36,529 nucleotides of DNA from Anaerolineae bacterium (lineage in GTDB: Bacteria > Chloroflexota > Anaerolineae > Aggregatilineales > Phototrophicaceae). The position numbers and the translations under genes were made by a program. Positions 21,862-35,639 of this stretch are shown one piece after another; position 1 is the stretch's first letter, and each line of letters opens with the position of its first letter. Below the pieces are notes generated by a model. It ran no database searches. It saw only the letters and a program-made list of their open reading frames with translations, and was not told where the DNA came from. The stretch lies in assembly GCA_016788625.1 (NCBI GenBank), contig JAEUQX010000212.1, forward strand, positions 1-36,529, given 5' to 3'.

Positions 21862-22479
21862 ATGAGCATCTGGGTGATCATTCCGGTGAAGCCTCTGAAT
21901 CGCGCGAAGAGCCGTTTGTCGGGAGTGCTTAGCCCGGCGGAACGCCAGCAGTTGGCCGAAAAGATGTTTAGGGGTGTGCTGGAGGTCGTCCGTACCGTTC
22001 CACAAGTTTTGGGGACGCTGGTCATCAGCCGTGATGGCCGCGCGTTAGCTATTGCCCGCGACTATGGCGCGCGCACAGTGCAGGAGAGCGGCAACCCGGA
22101 GTTGAATGCGGCCTTGATGCGCGCTACCCAGGTGGTTGCCCGTTGGCATGGCAGCGCGGTGCTGATCCTTCCGGCGGATCTGCCTCTGCTGGCCGGGGAA
22201 GACATCACCGGTATGATCGAAATGGCAGGGCACGGGGAGCGTTCGGTCGTGATCGCTACCGACCAGCACCAGGATGGCACCAACGCCATGCTTGTCCGTC
22301 CGCCAGGGCTGATCGAATATGCTTATGGGCACGGCAGTTACCAGCGCCACGTTGATCTGGCGCGGCTTGCGGGAGCGACTGTCCAGACTTTTCATTCGCC
22401 GCGTGTTTCACTGGATATAGACGTGCCAGATGATTTAAAATCCTACCATGAGCTGATCGGAGGCTACGAGCTTTCATAG
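21862..22479 (+). CDS. cofC: 2-phospho-L-lactate / PEP guanylyltransferase
   Basis: Activates phospholactate or phosphoenolpyruvate with GTP for CofD. The 205-residue product has the nucleotidyltransferase pattern: IPVKPLNRAKSRLSGVLS (7-24), ILPADLPLL and DGTNAMLVRPP. GAGGAGAA precedes the ATG. An 87-base gap separates it from cofD, one of the larger gaps in the island, but no convincing promoter is visible in it. With a stand-alone FbiB-type reductase nearby, the PEP-using variant (FbiD-like) is the more likely one; this is inference. Confidence 0.92.
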   Translation: MSIWVIIPVKPLNRAKSRLSGVLSPAERQQLAEKMFRGVLEVVRTVPQVLGTLVISRDGRALAIARDYGARTVQESGNPELNAALMRATQVVARWHGSAVLILPADLPLLAGEDITGMIEMAGHGERSVVIATDQHQDGTNAMLVRPPGLIEYAYGHGSYQRHVDLARLAGATVQTFHSPRVSLDIDVPDDLKSYHELIGGYELS

Positions 22480-22530
22480 ATTTCACGCTGCGTAGCCCGA
22501 TCCTTATTGTAGTATATATTGGGGGACAAA

Positions 22531-23538
22531 ATGGCTGATCGGGTCGCGCTTTATTTGCAGGATGCCCATTCACTTCAGGACGCGATTAAATACGTCCAGT
22601 ATGCTGAGTCGCGGGGTTTTGAGGCGGTCTGGCAGGCCGAGAGCCGCCTCGTGCGTGATGCGATTGTGCCTATGGCCGCTTTTGCTGCCACGACCACGCG
22701 CATCAAGATCGGCTCCGGCGTCATCAACAACTGGACGCGCAACGCTGCGGTGATCGCGGCGACCTTTCTCACGCTGGACGACCTTGCCCCGGATCGTATT
22801 ATCTGCGGTATCGGTGCATGGTGGGATCCACTCGCGCAGAAGGTTGGCATCAACCGCAGCAAACCGCTGCTCGCGATGCGCGAGGTTGTCACAGTAGTAC
22901 GTTCACTCCTGGCGCGCGAGCGTGTGACCTTTCACGGCGAGTTCGTCAACCTGGATGATGTCGAACTGGATGTCGTGCACGGCCGCAAAGAAGCGCGTAA
23001 TGTGCCGATCTATATTGGCGCGACCGGCCCGAAGATGATGGCACTGACGGGCGAAATCGCTGATGGCGCGGTGCTGAACTATCTGGTCTCGCCGCAGTAC
23101 AACAAAGGTGCTATCGAGCAGCTTGAAGAAGGCGCGAAGCAGGCCGGACGCAGCATGGATGAGATTGACCGCCCGCAGTTGGTGGTCTGTTCGGTGGATG
23201 AAGACCGCAAGCGGGCGCTGGATGCCGCGCGCAAGCTCGTAACGCAGTACCTCGGCCAGCAGCCGCACATCATGAAGGCCAGCGGCGTCAAGCAGGAACT
23301 GCTGGATGAAATCGGGCAGGTGCTCACCTGGCCTGCCACCGAAGAACAGATCGAAGAAGCTATGAAGCTCGTGCCTGATGACGTGGTGCAGATGATCACG
23401 GCGTCCGGCACGCCCAAGGAAGTGCGCGCGAAGGTGCGCGAGTACGTTCAGCATGGCGCGACGTGCCCGATTCTCTACCCGCTGGGGCCGGATGTGCGCC
23501 TGATGATTGATACCTTCTCTGATGGTTATTCAGACTAA
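22531..23538 (+). CDS. Luciferase-like F420-dependent oxidoreductase (Mer-like)
   Basis: The 335-residue TIM-barrel flavin/F420 oxidoreductase has the [21 protein letters not shown] region, IKIGSGV, a GIGAWWDP loop and the [12 protein letters not shown] block. This pattern is typical of the LLM class that uses F420 rather than FMN, such as methylene-tetrahydromethanopterin reductase relatives. GGGGG lies five bases before ATG 22531; TTG 22519 is an alternative start. Placed right after F420 biosynthesis and inside a purine island, it is the best candidate for an F420H2-dependent reductive step, replacing the YgfK-type reductase of other clusters. Its substrate is not known. Confidence 0.88.
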
Positions 23539-27559: not shown

Positions 27560-28990
27560 ATGTGGAAGCAGTATTACAGCGTCAGCAGCATCGGTGAAGC
27601 GCTCGAACTGCTGAGCCGGTTTCGGGAACGTGCCCGTATTATAGCTGGCGGGACGGACATCATTATTGAGTTAGAGCGGCATCAACGTCCCGGCGTTGAT
27701 GTTTTGATTGACATCACCCGTGTGCCTGGATTGGATCAGATCACGCAGCACGGGGATCAATTTCGCCTTGGCCCGTTGGTGACGCACAATCATGTCGTCG
27801 GCAATTCACTGCTGGTCGAGCGTGCGCTGCCGCTGGCGCAGGCGTGCTGGGAGGTTGGCGCGCCACAAATTCGTAATCGCGCGACGGTAGCAGGCAACCT
27901 GATCACGGCGTCCCCGGCGAATGACACCATTAGTCCGCTGATGGCGCTTGGCGCGGAGGTGACGCTGGCTTCACTGGAGGGTGAGCGCACTGTACCACTG
28001 TCCGGTTTTTATACGGGACTGCGAAAGACGGTCATGCGCCCTGACGAGATGCTGACCGCGATCACCTTCCCGGCACTGTCGCTCAGCGAACGTGGTATAT
28101 TCATCAAGCTCGGTTTGCGCCGTGCACAAGCTATTTCCGTGATCAATGTGGCTGTTGTGCTGGCCTTCGAGGGTGATGTGGTGTCGCGGGCGGCGATTGC
28201 GTTGGGCAGCGTCGCGCCGACGATCATTCGTGTTCCTGTCGCCGAGGCTGCACTGGTCGGGCAGCAGCTCAATGATGCCATCATTGTGGAAACAGCCCGT
28301 TTGGCCGCCGCGACACCTGAGCCGATAGATGATATTCGCGCGACAGCCGCTTATCGCACGGAGATGGTGCGTGTGCTGGTCGGCCGCGCGCTGCGGGCAC
28401 TGCGAGACGGCGAGCAGGCTGCGAACTGGCCGGACAATCCCGTAATGCTCTGGGGGGCAGATCAGGGACTCGTGAAGACGGGGCTTGCATCGCAGGTTGC
28501 TCACGAGGATAAACAGCCTATTGTGACGACCATCAACGGTCAGCCGGTCGAATTACACAGCGGGCACGACAAGACACTACTGCGCCTGCTGCGCGAAGAT
28601 GCGCAACTGCCGGGCACCAAGGAAGGCTGCGCGGAAGGGGAGTGTGGTGCGTGTACTGTGTATCTGGATGGTGTGGCGGTGATGGCGTGTATGGTGCCCG
28701 CGCCGCGCGCGCATGGTGCTGATATTGTCACCGTTGAGGGGTTGGAACAGGACGGGCGTTTGCACCCCATCCAACAGGGTTTCATCGACCAGGGCGCAGT
28801 GCAGTGTGGCTATTGTACCCCGGGGTTTCTGATGGCGGGCGCGAAGCTGCTGGAAGAATTCCCGGAGCCGACGTCCGCGCAGATACAGCAAAGCATCACC
28901 GGGAACCTGTGCCGCTGCACGGGCTACTACAAAATTATTCAGGCATTTGTCCAGGCTAGCAAAAGCAAATTGAGCGAGGAGGGGAATTGA
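27560..28990 (+). CDS. Molybdenum hydroxylase FAD subunit fused to the 2Fe-2S subunit
   Basis: The 476-residue fusion carries electron-transfer parts of a xanthine dehydrogenase-type enzyme. The FAD domain comes first (about 1-285) with AGGTDIII (29-36) and the [15 protein letters not shown] block. A 2Fe-2S domain follows (about 320-470). All eight cluster cysteines are present: 357, 362, 365 and 377 for the plant-type cluster, and 416, 419, 451 and 453 for the helical one. Classic xanthine dehydrogenase has 2Fe-2S before FAD, so the order here is reversed. E. coli uses a separate YgfM plus XdhD. The molybdenum subunit gene is separated from it by two unrelated-looking genes. Confidence 0.93.
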
Positions 28991-28992
28991 CC

Positions 28993-29361
28993 ATGGTAGG
29001 AAAACCGAAACCACGCAGCGCAACGGCTCGTTGGTGGCCTGTTATCGGCCTCGTATTGGTCATCGCGGTTGGGTTTTTGTCGTGGGTGATCGCGCCGGAA
29101 GCGAACCGTTTCCTCGCGCGCACGCTGCCGAATTACCCTCCACCCGGCGTGACAGGGCAGACGCTCAACCTGATTATGACAGGTATCCTGTTCGTTATCG
29201 TTGTGTTGTTGGTCTCACTGGTGGTGGCAGCCTCCGCGCCAAAGAAGAAGAGCGTTGTCAATGAGCCGCAGCTTATGAAAGACCGCGCTAAGCTGTTGGA
29301 CGAAAAGAAGAAACAGAAGCTGCGTCAGCGACAGATCAACCGGATGAATAAGAGCCAGTAA
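28993..29361 (+). CDS. Two-helix membrane protein of unknown function
   Basis: The 122-residue product has two hydrophobic helices (about 14-34 and 57-79) separated by a proline-containing loop, and a strongly basic, lysine-rich C-terminal tail (about 84-122) likely on the cytoplasmic side. GGAGGGG lies eight bases before ATG 28993; TTG 28987 is also in frame but too close to that site. The gene starts two bases after the FAD/2Fe-2S stop and ends one base before the next gene. I recognise no family. It could tether a complex to the membrane. Confidence 0.75.
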   Translation: MVGKPKPRSATARWWPVIGLVLVIAVGFLSWVIAPEANRFLARTLPNYPPPGVTGQTLNLIMTGILFVIVVLLVSLVVAASAPKKKSVVNEPQLMKDRAKLLDEKKKQKLRQRQINRMNKSQ

Positions 29362-29362
29362 T

Positions 29363-31117
29363 ATGGATCGCACTGTACCCAAGAGCGGCAGCGAAGAAAT
29401 CCAACTTTACATGAGGACGTATTATTCGCTGCTGCGTTCCAGTCATCCAATTCAGATTGAGACGCTGGTCGAGAGCCATATGGCGATTGGCTCGTCGCTA
29501 CATGACCGCGCGGCAGATATCGAACCTGACATTTCGGCGTTGGTGTATGCCAGCCTGCGCTTGCCCGATTGCATCGTGAATGTATCCCATGTGCTGATTG
29601 GCCAGATCGAACGGTCGTTCATTGAGGCCGGCTATCAAGATGTTCGCGCCTGGGAACGGGTTAGCGCGCCAGGGCGTCGGCGGCGAATGCACTTTAATGG
29701 CTCGGATTCGCTGGCAGTGTTCATCGCCAGCCGCTCCGATATTGACGACCTCGTGCCCACGCTGACCGCCTATCAGGTGGAGTGGAATAAGCTGCATGTG
29801 CTGCTGAAGGGCGAAGACTGCCTGACGATGCTTGAACGCCGCCGTTTCGCTGGTGAACGGCTTCCCGATGCTGAAGCGCAGCTTCTGGCAGAAACACTAC
29901 AGGTTCCGTCAGATGATTTGCGGCGATTAGAAGTGGTCTGGGGCGACCATTTCGTGGATACTTTGCTGCATATTGCGGCGGAACGTAAGCAGATCAACCT
30001 GCGCCTGCTGGCTGGCTCACTGGCGGACTATCGTCGTGCCACCGCCATCTGGTGGTCGGAAGTTCAGAGCCAGCTTGACGAGATCGACCTGGAGAGTCGT
30101 CCGGTCTACTTCGTCTCCAGCAACACACATTCGCTCATTAACCTGCTCACCGGGTTTGCCCAGCGCGAAGAAAGCAATCTGGTCGAGTATATCGAGCAGA
30201 TGAATAAGGGCGATCTGGTAGAGCATTACAAGGCGGTGAGCGAGAGCGATGATCGCAAGAGCCTGGATAATTTCCTCTACTACGTTCTCAAGAAGTATCT
30301 GGCGGACAAAGGACAGTCTGCCCGTGCTTCGATGGCGGCTGATGAACAGGTGATCGGTATCCAGCGCGCGCACAGTCGCTACGGGTTTGATCTGGAGGCG
30401 CAGGTCATCCAGATTAACAAGCTGCGTGTGGATTGGATGGATGCCCGGCTGCGTGATGTGGCGCTTGCAGATGTGCTGGAACGCAGCGACGCGCTGATCC
30501 TGAACATCGACTACCCGCTGGGACTGGCGGCCTATGAACTGCTGAACCGCGTGACAGAGCGGGTTGGGCATCTCGCGGGCGTCTACGTTATGGGCAAGGC
30601 GGCGACGCTGAACGGGCGTATCGGGGATGTGATGATCCCCAATGTGGTGCATGACGAACACTCGCAGAACACCTATCTGTTCCAGAACTGCTTCTCCGCA
30701 CAGTCTGTTGCGCCGCATTTGACTTACGGCATGGTGCTGGATAACCAGAAGGGCATCACCGTGCCGGGGACATTCCTGCAAAACCCGCGCTACATGAGCG
30801 TCTTTTATCACGAGGGTTATACCGATATTGAGATGGAGGCCGGGCCATTCCTCTCATCGGTTTACGAGGCCTTCCGGCCAAAGCTGCATCCCTACAACGA
30901 GATTGTCAATCTGTATGGGATTGGCTTCGATGTTGGCTTCTTGCACTATGCCTCGGATACACCCATGAGTAAGGGCAAGAACCTGGGTGCGGGCAGCCTG
31001 AGTTACTCCGGCGTTGATCCCACTTACGCGACGGCGATTGCTATTCTGCGCCGTATCTTTTCGCAGGAGGCGCTGCGGATGCGCGTTCGCAGCAGCCCGT
31101 CACTTGAACGCGCTTAA
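29363..31117 (+). CDS. 584-residue protein with a nucleoside-phosphorylase-like C-terminus
   Basis: The N-terminal 330 residues are mostly helical and of unknown function; the GRRRRMHF...SRSDIDDL segment recalls an uncharacterised family I remember as DUF6909, which needs checking. The C-terminal part (about 375-580) carries features of the purine nucleoside phosphorylase/nucleosidase fold. One is a hydrophobic strand followed by GKAATLNGRIGDVMIP (411-426). The other is EMEAGPF (490-496), where EMEA is the ribose-binding segment of DeoD-type enzymes. The gene follows the membrane protein by one base. If the reading is right, it would release or process purine bases upstream of the hydroxylase. 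No catalytic base can be confirmed by eye. Confidence 0.7.
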   Translation: MDRTVPKSGSEEIQLYMRTYYSLLRSSHPIQIETLVESHMAIGSSLHDRAADIEPDISALVYASLRLPDCIVNVSHVLIGQIERSFIEAGYQDVRAWERVSAPGRRRRMHFNGSDSLAVFIASRSDIDDLVPTLTAYQVEWNKLHVLLKGEDCLTMLERRRFAGERLPDAEAQLLAETLQVPSDDLRRLEVVWGDHFVDTLLHIAAERKQINLRLLAGSLADYRRATAIWWSEVQSQLDEIDLESRPVYFVSSNTHSLINLLTGFAQREESNLVEYIEQMNKGDLVEHYKAVSESDDRKSLDNFLYYVLKKYLADKGQSARASMAADEQVIGIQRAHSRYGFDLEAQVIQINKLRVDWMDARLRDVALADVLERSDALILNIDYPLGLAAYELLNRVTERVGHLAGVYVMGKAATLNGRIGDVMIPNVVHDEHSQNTYLFQNCFSAQSVAPHLTYGMVLDNQKGITVPGTFLQNPRYMSVFYHEGYTDIEMEAGPFLSSVYEAFRPKLHPYNEIVNLYGIGFDVGFLHYASDTPMSKGKNLGAGSLSYSGVDPTYATAIAILRRIFSQEALRMRVRSSPSLERA

Positions 31118-31248: not shown

Positions 31249-33480
31249 ATGTCACAGGAAAAAACGGTCGTCATTGGTCAGAACATAAAGCGTGTTGACG
31301 CGCTAGGCAAGGTCACGGGCAAGACACCTTATCCCGGTGATATCGACCTGCCTGGACAATTATGGATGAAAATCCGCTTCAGTGACCGCGCTCATGCACG
31401 GGTGCTGGTGATTGATTCCAGCAAGGCCGAAGCACTCCCCGGCGTGGTACGGGTTTTCACCGCCAGGGATGTGCCGCACAACGAATACGGTTTGGTCACG
31501 AAAGACCAGCCTGTGCTGTGTGGTCCCGGCAGCAACAGCGCTGTGCCAGACGCGGATGTGGTGCGCTGTTACATGGATAATGTCGCCATCGTGGTTGCGG
31601 AGACCGAAGCGATTGCCGCCGAGGCTGTCAAGCTGATTGACGTGACCTATGAGGATTTGCCGCCGGTGTTTGACCCGGAATCGGCGCTGGAGAGCGATGC
31701 CCCGCAGATTCATGGCAACTACCCTGGCAATGTGCTGTGCCACTATCGTATCCGCAAGGGCGATATGGAGGCGGGCTGGGCGAAGGCTGACGTCATCGTT
31801 GAGGGTGAATATCATACGGGCTACCAGGAACATGCCTTCTTGCAGCCAGAAGCAGGACTGGGCTACATCGACGAACAGGGGCGTGTGACGGTCGTCGTCG
31901 CCGGGCAGTGGGTGCATGAAGATCAGGAACAGATTTATCATGCGCTTGGCCTACCAGAAGAACAGGTGCGCGTGATCTATCCGGCAGTTGGTGGTGCGTT
32001 CGGTGGGCGTGAGGATATGTCGGTGCAGATTGTGCTCGCGCTCGCGGTTCATGCGTTGCGCCAACCGATCAAGATCGTCTGGAGTCGCGAAGAGTCGATC
32101 CTGTACCACCACAAGCGCCATCCGGTGACTGTGCGCGCCAAATGGGGCGCCACGCGTGAGGGCAAGATCGTGGCGGCGGAAGCGACGGTCATAGGGGATG
32201 CTGGTCCGTATAACTACACATCGACGAAAGTCATGGGCAATGCGAACCTGACAGTCACTGGTCCTTACGAAATCGACAACATCCGCATCGATACGTATGG
32301 TGTGATCACCAACAATATCCCGACAGGTGCGTTTCGGGGTTTTGGCGCGCCACAAGGGGCTTTTGCCGCCGAGGGGCAGGTGAATAAGCTGGCCCAGGCC
32401 TTGAACATGGATCCGGTTGAAGTTCGTGCCCGCAACGTGTTCCGCGAAGGCAGCATCCTGAGTGTAGGGACGCCGCTTCCCGCTGGTGTTTCGATGCCCC
32501 AGGTGATTGAAACCTGTGCGCGCGAGAGTTTCTGGCAGCAGGGTGACACAGGGTGGGAACGCCCGATGACCGAGCAGCCTGCTAATCCGGCCCTGCGGCG
32601 TGGGGTCGGGTTCGCCGCCGCGTTTAAGAACATTGGCTTTAGCTTTGGCTTCCCGGAGCAGAACTGGGCGACGGTTGAGCTGCACGGCGAGCGCGAAATC
32701 GAAGAAGTCGTCGTTCGGCAGTCTGGCGCCGAGGTGGGGCAGGGCGCACATACTGCCTTTATGCAGATGGCGGCGGATGCAGTAGGTGTGCCCTTCGAGC
32801 GAGTGCGCCTGATCGGCATGGACACTGCGGAGACGCGCACCTCTGGCAGCGCATCGGCCTCGCGGTTGACATTTATGGCAGGAAACGCCATACGCGGGGC
32901 GGCAGCGGCGGCGCTGGAACGCTGGCGCGGCGAAGAACGCCCGGCTATTGCAACTTACCAGTATCGACCACCGAAGACGACACCCTATGACCCGGAAACC
33001 GGTCGCAGCGAGCCAAACTTCGCCTATGGCTATGTGGCACAAGCCGTTGAAGTCGAGGTTGATATCGAGACTGGGCACGTTCATCTGCTGCGTGTGATCA
33101 GCACGAATGATGTGGGGCGCGCCGTGAATCCGCATCTGGTTCAGGGACAGATTGAAGGAGGTGTGGTGCAGGCGCAAGGCTATGCCATCATGGAGAATCT
33201 CGTCTCGGTAGAAGGCAGGATCAAGAATCCATTCCTTTCGACCTATCTGATCCCAACTGTGCTGGATGTACCCACAGAAGTGAGATCTGTCATCCTCGAG
33301 TATCCCGATCCGATTGGCCCATGGGGAGCACGCGGCATGGCAGAGATGCCGTTCCTGCCGCTGGCCGCCGCTATTGTTGCTGCGGTTCATGATGCGACGG
33401 GCATCTGGATTGATCAGCTTCCACTCACCCCGGATCGAGTGGTTCCGGCGCTGCGTGCACATGGCATCGGCATTCTTTAG
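31249..33480 (+). CDS. Molybdenum-binding subunit of a xanthine dehydrogenase-type hydroxylase
   Basis: The 743-residue catalytic subunit holds the molybdopterin cofactor and hydroxylates a purine or other N-heterocycle using water oxygen. Motifs are GGAFGGRED (248-256), GAFRGFGAPQG (360-370), AEVGQG (494-499) and GARGMAEMP, in which Glu699 aligns with the catalytic base usually found in GxGE. It lacks 2Fe-2S and FAD domains, which are on the fusion encoded at 27560. The 131-base gap upstream may hold a regulatory site, but no strong promoter is visible. Its end overlaps the yqeB-type gene by 20 bases. Xanthine/hypoxanthine is the likely substrate by context only. Confidence 0.94.
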   Translation: MSQEKTVVIGQNIKRVDALGKVTGKTPYPGDIDLPGQLWMKIRFSDRAHARVLVIDSSKAEALPGVVRVFTARDVPHNEYGLVTKDQPVLCGPGSNSAVPDADVVRCYMDNVAIVVAETEAIAAEAVKLIDVTYEDLPPVFDPESALESDAPQIHGNYPGNVLCHYRIRKGDMEAGWAKADVIVEGEYHTGYQEHAFLQPEAGLGYIDEQGRVTVVVAGQWVHEDQEQIYHALGLPEEQVRVIYPAVGGAFGGREDMSVQIVLALAVHALRQPIKIVWSREESILYHHKRHPVTVRAKWGATREGKIVAAEATVIGDAGPYNYTSTKVMGNANLTVTGPYEIDNIRIDTYGVITNNIPTGAFRGFGAPQGAFAAEGQVNKLAQALNMDPVEVRARNVFREGSILSVGTPLPAGVSMPQVIETCARESFWQQGDTGWERPMTEQPANPALRRGVGFAAAFKNIGFSFGFPEQNWATVELHGEREIEEVVVRQSGAEVGQGAHTAFMQMAADAVGVPFERVRLIGMDTAETRTSGSASASRLTFMAGNAIRGAAAAALERWRGEERPAIATYQYRPPKTTPYDPETGRSEPNFAYGYVAQAVEVEVDIETGHVHLLRVISTNDVGRAVNPHLVQGQIEGGVVQAQGYAIMENLVSVEGRIKNPFLSTYLIPTVLDVPTEVRSVILEYPDPIGPWGARGMAEMPFLPLAAAIVAAVHDATGIWIDQLPLTPDRVVPALRAHGIGIL

Positions 33481-34309
33481 CCGCGCCCTCATCGTCGTGC
33501 GCGGCGGTGGCGACCTCGCGAGCGGGGTCGTTTATCGCCTGTGCCGAGCGGGTTTTCCGGTCATCATTACCGAGCTTGCAGCGCCTGTATTGGTGCGGCG
33601 CACCGTTAGCTTTGGCGAAGCCGTCTACAGCGGCGAGATCGTGGTCGAGGGTCTCCGCGCCCAACTCGCACCGGATGTGCAAGCAGCACGCGGGCTGGCC
33701 GAGACGGGTGTCATCGCGGTGCTGGTTGACCCGGCAGGTGAGAACCTGATTGCGTTGCGTCCGGCGGCCGTTGTAGACGCGCGTATGGTCAAGTTCAACC
33801 TTGATACGACCCTGGAGGATGCGCCGCTGGTGGTTGCGCTGGGGCCGGGTTTCTCGGCAGGAGTCGATTGTCACGCCGTCATCGAGACCAATCGAGGTCA
33901 CAATCTTGGGAGAGTGATCTATGCTGGCCCCGCAGAAGCTGATACGGGAGAACCCGGCGTCGTTCAGGGACACACCCACTCGCGTGTGCTGCGCGCGCCT
34001 GCTGCCGGGCACGTTCGCGGCGCGGCATCTATCGGTGATGTGGTGGAGAGCGGTCAGGTGGTCGCTTGGGTCAGTGATCATGCGATTCGGGCGGCTTTTA
34101 CGGGCGTGCTGCGCGGTCTTGTGCACGAGCGGGTCGCGGTTGAAGCGGGTATGAAGATTGGCGACCTCGATCCGCGTGCGGGGCGTGACGCCTGTTTTAC
34201 AATCTCCGATAAGTCCCTGGCCGTCGGGGGAGGGGTACTGGAAGCAGTGCTGGCTGCCCCGCAGATACGACCTTATCTGATGCCTTATGAAGCTGCAAAA
34301 AGCCTTTGA
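33461..34309 (+). CDS. yqeB: YqeB-type (EF2563 family) molybdenum hydroxylase maturation protein
   Basis: The 282-residue product begins with the RGGGDLASG motif (about residues 14-22) and continues with the FPVIITELAAPVLVRRTVSF block characteristic of the EF2563/YqeB family. The family is named for selenium-dependent molybdenum hydroxylases, and its members sit beside yqeC and mocA in many genomes. The exact reaction is unknown. The frame is open upstream to 33314, but ATG 33461 gives the conserved N-terminus and lies in the overlap with the molybdenum subunit gene, implying coupled translation. It overlaps the next gene by 23 bases. Confidence 0.92.
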   Translation: MASAFFSRALIVVRGGGDLASGVVYRLCRAGFPVIITELAAPVLVRRTVSFGEAVYSGEIVVEGLRAQLAPDVQAARGLAETGVIAVLVDPAGENLIALRPAAVVDARMVKFNLDTTLEDAPLVVALGPGFSAGVDCHAVIETNRGHNLGRVIYAGPAEADTGEPGVVQGHTHSRVLRAPAAGHVRGAASIGDVVESGQVVAWVSDHAIRAAFTGVLRGLVHERVAVEAGMKIGDLDPRAGRDACFTISDKSLAVGGGVLEAVLAAPQIRPYLMPYEAAKSL

Positions 34310-35639
34310 TATTGTTCCAGGCAGCGTCGTTGCCCTGATCGGCGCAGGGGGAAAGACCTCCAGCCTGATCGCGCTTGGGCATGAGCTGGCGGGAGCGGGT
34401 CTGCGCGTGCTGGCGACGACGACAACTCGCATTGGCGTCGAGCAGCTTGACCTGATGCCCTATGCCACACCTGTTGATCGCGGATCATCTCACCTGTCGC
34501 TTGCCCTCGGCGAAAACCGTTTTGTATTTCTCTACAACGATATTCGCGGTAGTAAGGTGCATGGCATCAGCCCGGCGGATGTGCCGAGGCTGCTCGATTC
34601 AGTGGACTCGGATGTGCTGCTGATCGAAGCAGACGGTGCGCGTGGCAAAGGGCTGAAAGCACCCAAATCGCATGAACCCGTGATTCCCGCCGAGACGACG
34701 CTGGTCATCCCTATCGCCTCGCTGTCCGTGCTGGGGCAGCCGCTGGACGACGAACACGTTTACAATGCAGCGGCGATTGACGAGCGCTACGGTTTCGGCC
34801 TGGGCAATCGCATCAAGTCACCCTGGGTGGCACAGATCATGCGCGATGAAGAACTCGGCTTGCGCGGCGTGCCGGAAAAATCGCGGGTTATCGCTCTGCT
34901 CAACCAGGTGCCGAACAGCGGCTATCTGCGTGGCCGGGCGCGATTGATCGCCCAATTCATTCTGCGCTCACAGCGTATCCAGGCTGTTGCGTTGGGGTCG
35001 GTGCGCGGCGCAGATCCCATCCTGGAAGTGCAGCGGCATGTGGGCGCGGTTGTGCTGGCGGCGGGTAAGTCTTCCCGTATGGGTCAGTTCAAGCTGCTGC
35101 TGCCCTGGGCGAACGGTAGATCGATCCTGGAACATATCCTTGATCAGCTTGCTTTGGCGAAAGTCTGGGAAGTCATGGTCGTCACCGGGCATCGTTCGGG
35201 CGATGTGACGCGCCTGGCTGTGCAGGCCGGGGTACAGACGGCGCATAATGCTGAATATGCGACGGGTGAGATGCTCTCCTCGCTAAAGGCTGGGCTGCGT
35301 GCCTTGCCGCCGCACGTTAGCGCGGCGTTGGTGGTACTGGGTGACCAGCCGCGCATCCAGCCAAAGGTAATTGCCCAGGTGATGACCGCCTATTCAGAGG
35401 GTGCGGGCGAGATCATCGCGCCCAGCTACCAGATGCGGCGCGGGCATCCAATCCTGATTGACCGCAAGTATTGGCCGGAAATTCTGGCGCTGCCCAACGA
35501 CGGTGCACCGCGTGATGTCATCGAGCGCCACAAGGATAAGGTTGCCTACGTGACGGTCGATACCGACAGCGTTTTGCGCGATGTGGACACCCCTGAAGCA
35601 TACCGCGAGGAACGTCGTCTGGCTGGTCTTGACCCGTAA
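34287..35639 (+). CDS. YqeC-MocA fusion, molybdenum/selenium cofactor maturation
   Basis: Two proteins that are separate in E. coli are joined here (450 residues). Residues 1-245 are YqeC-like, with a P-loop GAGGKTS (19-25), a TTTTRIG block and an EADGARGKGLKAP segment. Residues 252-445 are a MocA-type nucleotidyltransferase with VLAAGKSSRMGQFKLLLPW, GDQPRIQP and DVDTPEAY, which would attach CMP to molybdopterin. The start ATG 34287 lies inside yqeB, so translation is coupled. The order yqeB-yqeC-mocA is conserved, which supports the fusion being functional. It is the last plus-strand gene of the array. Confidence 0.93.
   Translation: MKLQKAFDIVPGSVVALIGAGGKTSSLIALGHELAGAGLRVLATTTTRIGVEQLDLMPYATPVDRGSSHLSLALGENRFVFLYNDIRGSKVHGISPADVPRLLDSVDSDVLLIEADGARGKGLKAPKSHEPVIPAETTLVIPIASLSVLGQPLDDEHVYNAAAIDERYGFGLGNRIKSPWVAQIMRDEELGLRGVPEKSRVIALLNQVPNSGYLRGRARLIAQFILRSQRIQAVALGSVRGADPILEVQRHVGAVVLAAGKSSRMGQFKLLLPWANGRSILEHILDQLALAKVWEVMVVTGHRSGDVTRLAVQAGVQTAHNAEYATGEMLSSLKAGLRALPPHVSAALVVLGDQPRIQPKVIAQVMTAYSEGAGEIIAPSYQMRRGHPILIDRKYWPEILALPNDGAPRDVIERHKDKVAYVTVDTDSVLRDVDTPEAYREERRLAGLDP

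Follow-up and report, generated by a model that had tools for sequence, protein, structure and literature searches.

What kind of protein is encoded by a gene that lies among the subunit genes of a molybdenum hydroxylase and belongs to a family of unknown function? The question is posed by an open reading frame for a 584-residue protein at positions 29,363-31,117 of the window, by which is meant the whole 36,529-nucleotide stretch of Anaerolineae DNA that was analyzed; all window coordinates given here refer to the forward strand. The reading frame opens with an ATG one base past the stop of an upstream 124-residue ORF, and its product is a full-length member of the DUF6909 family (Pfam PF21850, E 2.8e-220, 732.6 bits against a gathering cut-off of 27), with residues 32-567 matching positions 1-535 of the 535-position profile. 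The Pfam description of this family gives no function and no mention of DUF6909 was found in the literature searched, so that, as far as the literature and databases searched show, the family is functionally undescribed. The protein had no match in NCBIfam, or in PHROGs and PADLOC, so that no phage or defense family is indicated, and searches of PDB sequences with both the protein and the family profile returned no credible chain. Likewise, neither PF01048 (PNP_UDP_1), in a Pfam scan up to E 1, nor PF10423 (AMNp_N) matched the protein, and the gene is not among the matches of a PF01048 search of the source genome.

The answer favored here, at a probability of roughly 0.6, is that DUF6909 proteins cleave the N-glycosidic bond of purine nucleotides or nucleosides, hydrolysis being the likelier route, and that they form a separate and deeply diverged family of the NP-I (PNP/UDP) superfamily. 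Enzymes of this kind are already known; what the analysis would add is a predicted fold and a putative mechanism for DUF6909. A family carried by about a third of the sampled Chloroflexota genomes thereby gains a candidate active site and a testable job, with likely catalytic residues that are unchanged in the relatives examined.

The fold provides the broadest line of evidence. An AlphaFold2 model of the whole protein, built from 72 homologues, has a mean pLDDT of 90.1 and a pTM of 0.91. In a Foldseek search of the PDB with this model, AMP nucleosidase (2guw, E 6.7e-7) ranks first and the best 50 matches are all nucleoside phosphorylases or nucleosidases, and the best 50 VIA-align matches, all of the PNP/UDP fold, align mostly over residues 226-570 (Z 15.7-16.8, 203-241 residues, rmsd 2.6-3.9 Å). 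Residues from about 226 to 570 (30,038-31,072) are thus predicted to adopt the PNP/UDP (NP-I superfamily) fold. An earlier note on this DNA had foreseen that a fold search would lead to such enzymes, as it did, but had set the domain at residues 360-584, about 130 residues too late at its start. Within the domain, the first strand gives way to an insertion some 80 residues long and mostly helical (approximate limits, from the secondary structure of the model, residues 264-345; 30,152-30,397), and the conserved motifs are found where successive strands end, as the PNP/UDP fold has them.

Comparison of sequence profiles supports the same assignment. The two blocks on which the earlier note had based its reading, GKAATLNGRIGDVMIP (residues 411-426) and EMEAGPF (490-496), fall in the expected register on Udp, DeoD, and PNP when a family profile of 172 Chloroflexota rows and two from Persicobacter is aligned with HHalign. 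On both E. coli DeoD (P 3.4e-3, score 30.9) and a Chloroflexota PNP (P 9.7e-3, score 28.5), GKAATL, GD, and EMEAG lie on the corresponding blocks, and GD and EMEAG do so on E. coli Udp (P 7.8e-4, score 35.7). As the best of 26 unrelated control families reached only a score of 20.2 and a P of 0.098, these scores give independent sequence support for PNP-fold homology. Against these three families the comparison became informative once the two Persicobacter homologues had been added. AMP nucleosidase, by contrast, did not reach significance (P 0.23), in keeping with the result for a narrow family profile, which also failed to match it significantly, so that the profile comparison offers no proof of a special relation between the two families; the register is nevertheless unchanged and continues as far as SDTP, which aligns with SDKP.

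Four stretches of the PNP-fold domain stand out in this register and in conservation. GKAATLNGRIGD (residues 411-422; 30,593-30,628) would be the GxxGxx...GD block of nucleosidases, EMEAG (490-494; 30,830-30,844) contains the ribose-binding Met-Glu position, GTFLQN (469-474; 30,767-30,784) takes the place of the base-stacking loop, opposite GTVV of AMP nucleosidase, and HYASDTP (528-534; 30,944-30,964), opposite SDKP, contains D532, the proposed N7-protonating Asp. A fifth, SSNTHS (252-257; 30,116-30,133), forms the loop past the first strand in the model and includes the invariant N254 and H256. The agreement of the blocks noted earlier is more than chance, because G411, K412, L416, G421, D422, E490, M491, and E492 are identical in all 174 sequences, the most distant of which are about 25% identical. 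N254 and D532 are likewise invariant across the 174, as are K412, Q473, and N442, which are peculiar to DUF6909.

In overall plan, the nearest known enzyme is AMP nucleosidase (Amn, EC 3.2.2.4; E. coli 1T8S, K. pneumoniae 7UWQ), which similarly joins a PNP-fold C-terminal domain to a large N-terminal domain. In that enzyme N205, W383, M404, E405, and D428 contact the base and sugar, while R381 and K436 contact the phosphate together with H188 and Y189 of the neighboring chain (PMC9584410). Counterparts of N205, M404, E405, and D428 are found in N254, M491, E492, and D532, respectively, where the last three come from the HHalign register and N254 was placed by eye; these equivalences rest on sequence registers and secondary structure rather than on superposed coordinates. 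The two families also share the SD-x-P motif and a residue other than Arg at the position of PNP Arg87. Unlike AMP nucleosidase, however, DUF6909 carries the helical insertion, lacks an AMNp_N match, and has no invariant counterpart of W383, R381, or K436 among the 174 sequences; K537 and K539 are only mostly Lys or Arg, being Thr and Ser in Persicobacter, and alignment of the H188/Y189 region to DUF6909 is unreliable. With no invariant residue to match R381 or K436, a 5'-phosphate may be missing from the substrate or be held in another way.

The resemblance to E. coli Udp and DeoD, which lack an N-terminal domain, lies in the fold (Z about 16) and in the way the GD and EME motifs align, and with DeoD extends to the GxxGxx block and to the SD motif that in DeoD contains the catalytic Asp204. 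Where DUF6909 departs from both is in the phosphate site. E. coli PNP binds phosphate through Arg24, Arg87, Arg43', and Ser90, and protonates N7 with Asp204 (PMC6193948). The Arg87 position corresponds to residue 409 of the DUF6909 protein, which is Ile, Val, Ser, Ala, Leu, or Met but never Arg in the 174 sequences, and Lys412 takes the place of Ser90 in 174 of 174, so that neither of these contacts of hexameric PNP is present. This makes a hydrolase or nucleosidase likelier than a phosphorylase, and the pattern of purine nucleoside phosphorylases to which the blocks had first been referred proves too specific a label. Phosphorolysis, in which phosphate held by residues special to the family, such as K412 and H256, would be the acceptor and ribose 1-phosphate and free base the products, is accordingly judged unlikely: the best profile matches are indeed phosphorylases (Udp, DeoD, and PNP), and the invariant K412 and H256 do lie at or near phosphate-contact positions, but the replacements at the Arg87 and Ser90 positions and an overall plan that is that of a hydrolase, AMP nucleosidase, argue for the other acceptor.

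For a hydrolytic purine nucleosidase, the conserved residues suggest a plausible division of labor. M491 and E492 would hold the ribose, D532 would protonate N7 of the base, and N254 would stand at the place of the Asn of AMP nucleosidase that contacts base and sugar. With no Arg at the place of the phosphorolytic Arg87, the acceptor is more likely to be water, and breakage of the N-glycosidic bond of the purine nucleotide or nucleoside would yield the free base together with either ribose or its 5-phosphate. An adenine-type 5'-nucleotide is the best guess for the putative substrate.

Assignment of the substrate is complicated by the content of the source genome, which encodes eight ordinary PNP_UDP_1 (PF01048) proteins. 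These, along with the P of 0.23 for AMP nucleosidase, count against the purine-nucleosidase reading, whereas the absence of AMNp_N (PF10423) domains from the 151 Chloroflexota genomes searched, the source genome included, counts for it. The enzyme might instead cleave an unusual substrate, such as a modified or signaling nucleotide or a nucleotide cofactor, and play no part in purine salvage. The eight proteins, the unconserved AMP-phosphate contacts, and the unique invariant residues K412, Q473, and N442 all fit this alternative, which is doubtful nonetheless, as nothing positive points to any such substrate. A more far-reaching version, given a similarly low probability, would make DUF6909 a nucleosidase family in its own right, found mostly in Chloroflexota, whose N-terminal domain has a new fold and whose substrate, such as a special or signaling nucleotide, differs from those of the PNP-fold enzymes already known; in the Anaerolineae it would have joined a selenium-molybdenum purine hydroxylase operon. 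If DUF6909 proteins are 5'-nucleotide nucleosidases, they would provide a step like that of AMP nucleosidase to a phylum in which the AMNp_N type was not found in 151 genomes, and one lineage would have nucleotide breakdown linked to the molybdenum hydroxylase encoded alongside.

The N-terminal domain (residues 1-225; 29,363-30,037) presents a different problem. Modeled alone, residues 1-242 give a pLDDT of 92.0 and a pTM of 0.88, yet no Foldseek match in the PDB falls under E 0.2, the best VIA-align Z is 3.3, with no convincing fold match, and AMP nucleosidase is absent among the listed matches. These searches neither show nor exclude a new fold. The earlier view of the first 330 residues as unlike known nucleosidases thus holds for about residues 1-225 and fails beyond them, where the PNP/UDP fold begins. 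Residues R105-R106-R107, D129, E140, and K143 are invariant in the 174 sequences, even in Persicobacter. In the source genome, no other copy of the domain was found.

Sampling of Chloroflexota found DUF6909 in 140 of 400 genomes; among near genomes the figure is 28 of 41. It is nearly always a single copy, with some copies split at contig ends and two in one genome (G273). The two Persicobacter (Bacteroidota) homologues, about 25% identical and matching DUF6909 at E about 1e-64, are on plasmids. One contig labeled Bacteroidetes (L026) carries a DUF6909 protein that clusters among those of Anaerolineae relatives sharing the operon, and is probably from a mislabeled or contaminated metagenome-assembled genome.

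How, then, is the gene related to the hydroxylase that surrounds it? As had been noted, it lies between the gene for the fused FAD and 2Fe-2S subunit (27,560-28,990) and that for the molybdopterin-binding subunit (31,249-33,480) of a xanthine-dehydrogenase-like enzyme, both identified by Pfam and NCBIfam; the 124-residue ORF (28,987-29,361), a predicted membrane protein with no Pfam match over the cut-off, is there too. In the source lineage, purine freed by the proposed enzyme could feed this adjacent hydroxylase. Among the nearest 80 homologues, 26 of the 52 loci with enough flank place DUF6909 near both hydroxylase genes, and 10 near loci have a PNP gene (PF01048) no more than about 10 kb away, which fits a purine neighborhood. 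On a tree of 103 proteins, from a short search with SH-aLRT support only, the hydroxylase neighborhood requires 7 changes compared with 34.7 for shuffled labels, indicating an old arrangement with several gains or losses. It is also limited to Anaerolineae-type lineages: none of 28 divergent loci of the phylum has it. Across the 400 genomes, DUF6909 and the hydroxylase marker yqeB (scored as present from 185 bits upward) are not found together beyond expectation, DUF6909 being carried by 24 of the 78 genomes with yqeB and by 116 of the 322 without it (Fisher p 0.43). A direct purine-supply link, as suggested from gene order, and with it a tight functional tie to the hydroxylase, is therefore not supported across the phylum.

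The same distribution bears on whether the protein is an enzyme at all. A non-catalytic nucleotide-binding protein that regulates or helps assemble other enzymes, possibly the molybdenum hydroxylase in the source lineage, would suit its place with the membrane-protein ORF in the hydroxylase operon of many Anaerolineae and its large N-terminal domain, with invariant residues and no convincing fold match; the catalytic-type residues invariant in 174 sequences and the occurrence of DUF6909 in genomes and neighborhoods lacking the hydroxylase make it unlikely. Cleavage of a molybdenum-cofactor nucleotide, raised by the nearby mocA, was dropped as many lineages lack that neighborhood.

Several other features of these loci can be recorded. 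Downstream of the hydroxylase genes are yqeB and a YqeC-MocA fusion (33,425-35,639), markers of selenium-dependent molybdenum hydroxylases, and a few kilobases upstream of DUF6909 are cofC-like and F420-type (LLM) oxidoreductase genes (21,862-23,538), in an order kept in relatives. Many relatives have an ORF similar to that of the 124-residue membrane protein directly upstream of DUF6909, and in more distant lineages the same place is taken by another cluster of ORFs of like size (e.g. L092:7413-7937). In three Anaerolineae loci (L048, L050, and L065), DUF6909 directly follows an AIRS-family gene resembling selenophosphate synthetase and has an M24 peptidase-like gene downstream of it, with a homologue of the MavL macrodomain family additionally present in L050. 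Finally, a DHH/DHHA2 protein with CBS domains, inorganic-pyrophosphatase-like, is encoded upstream in 13 of the 52 near loci (L039, L041, L044, L053, and nine others).
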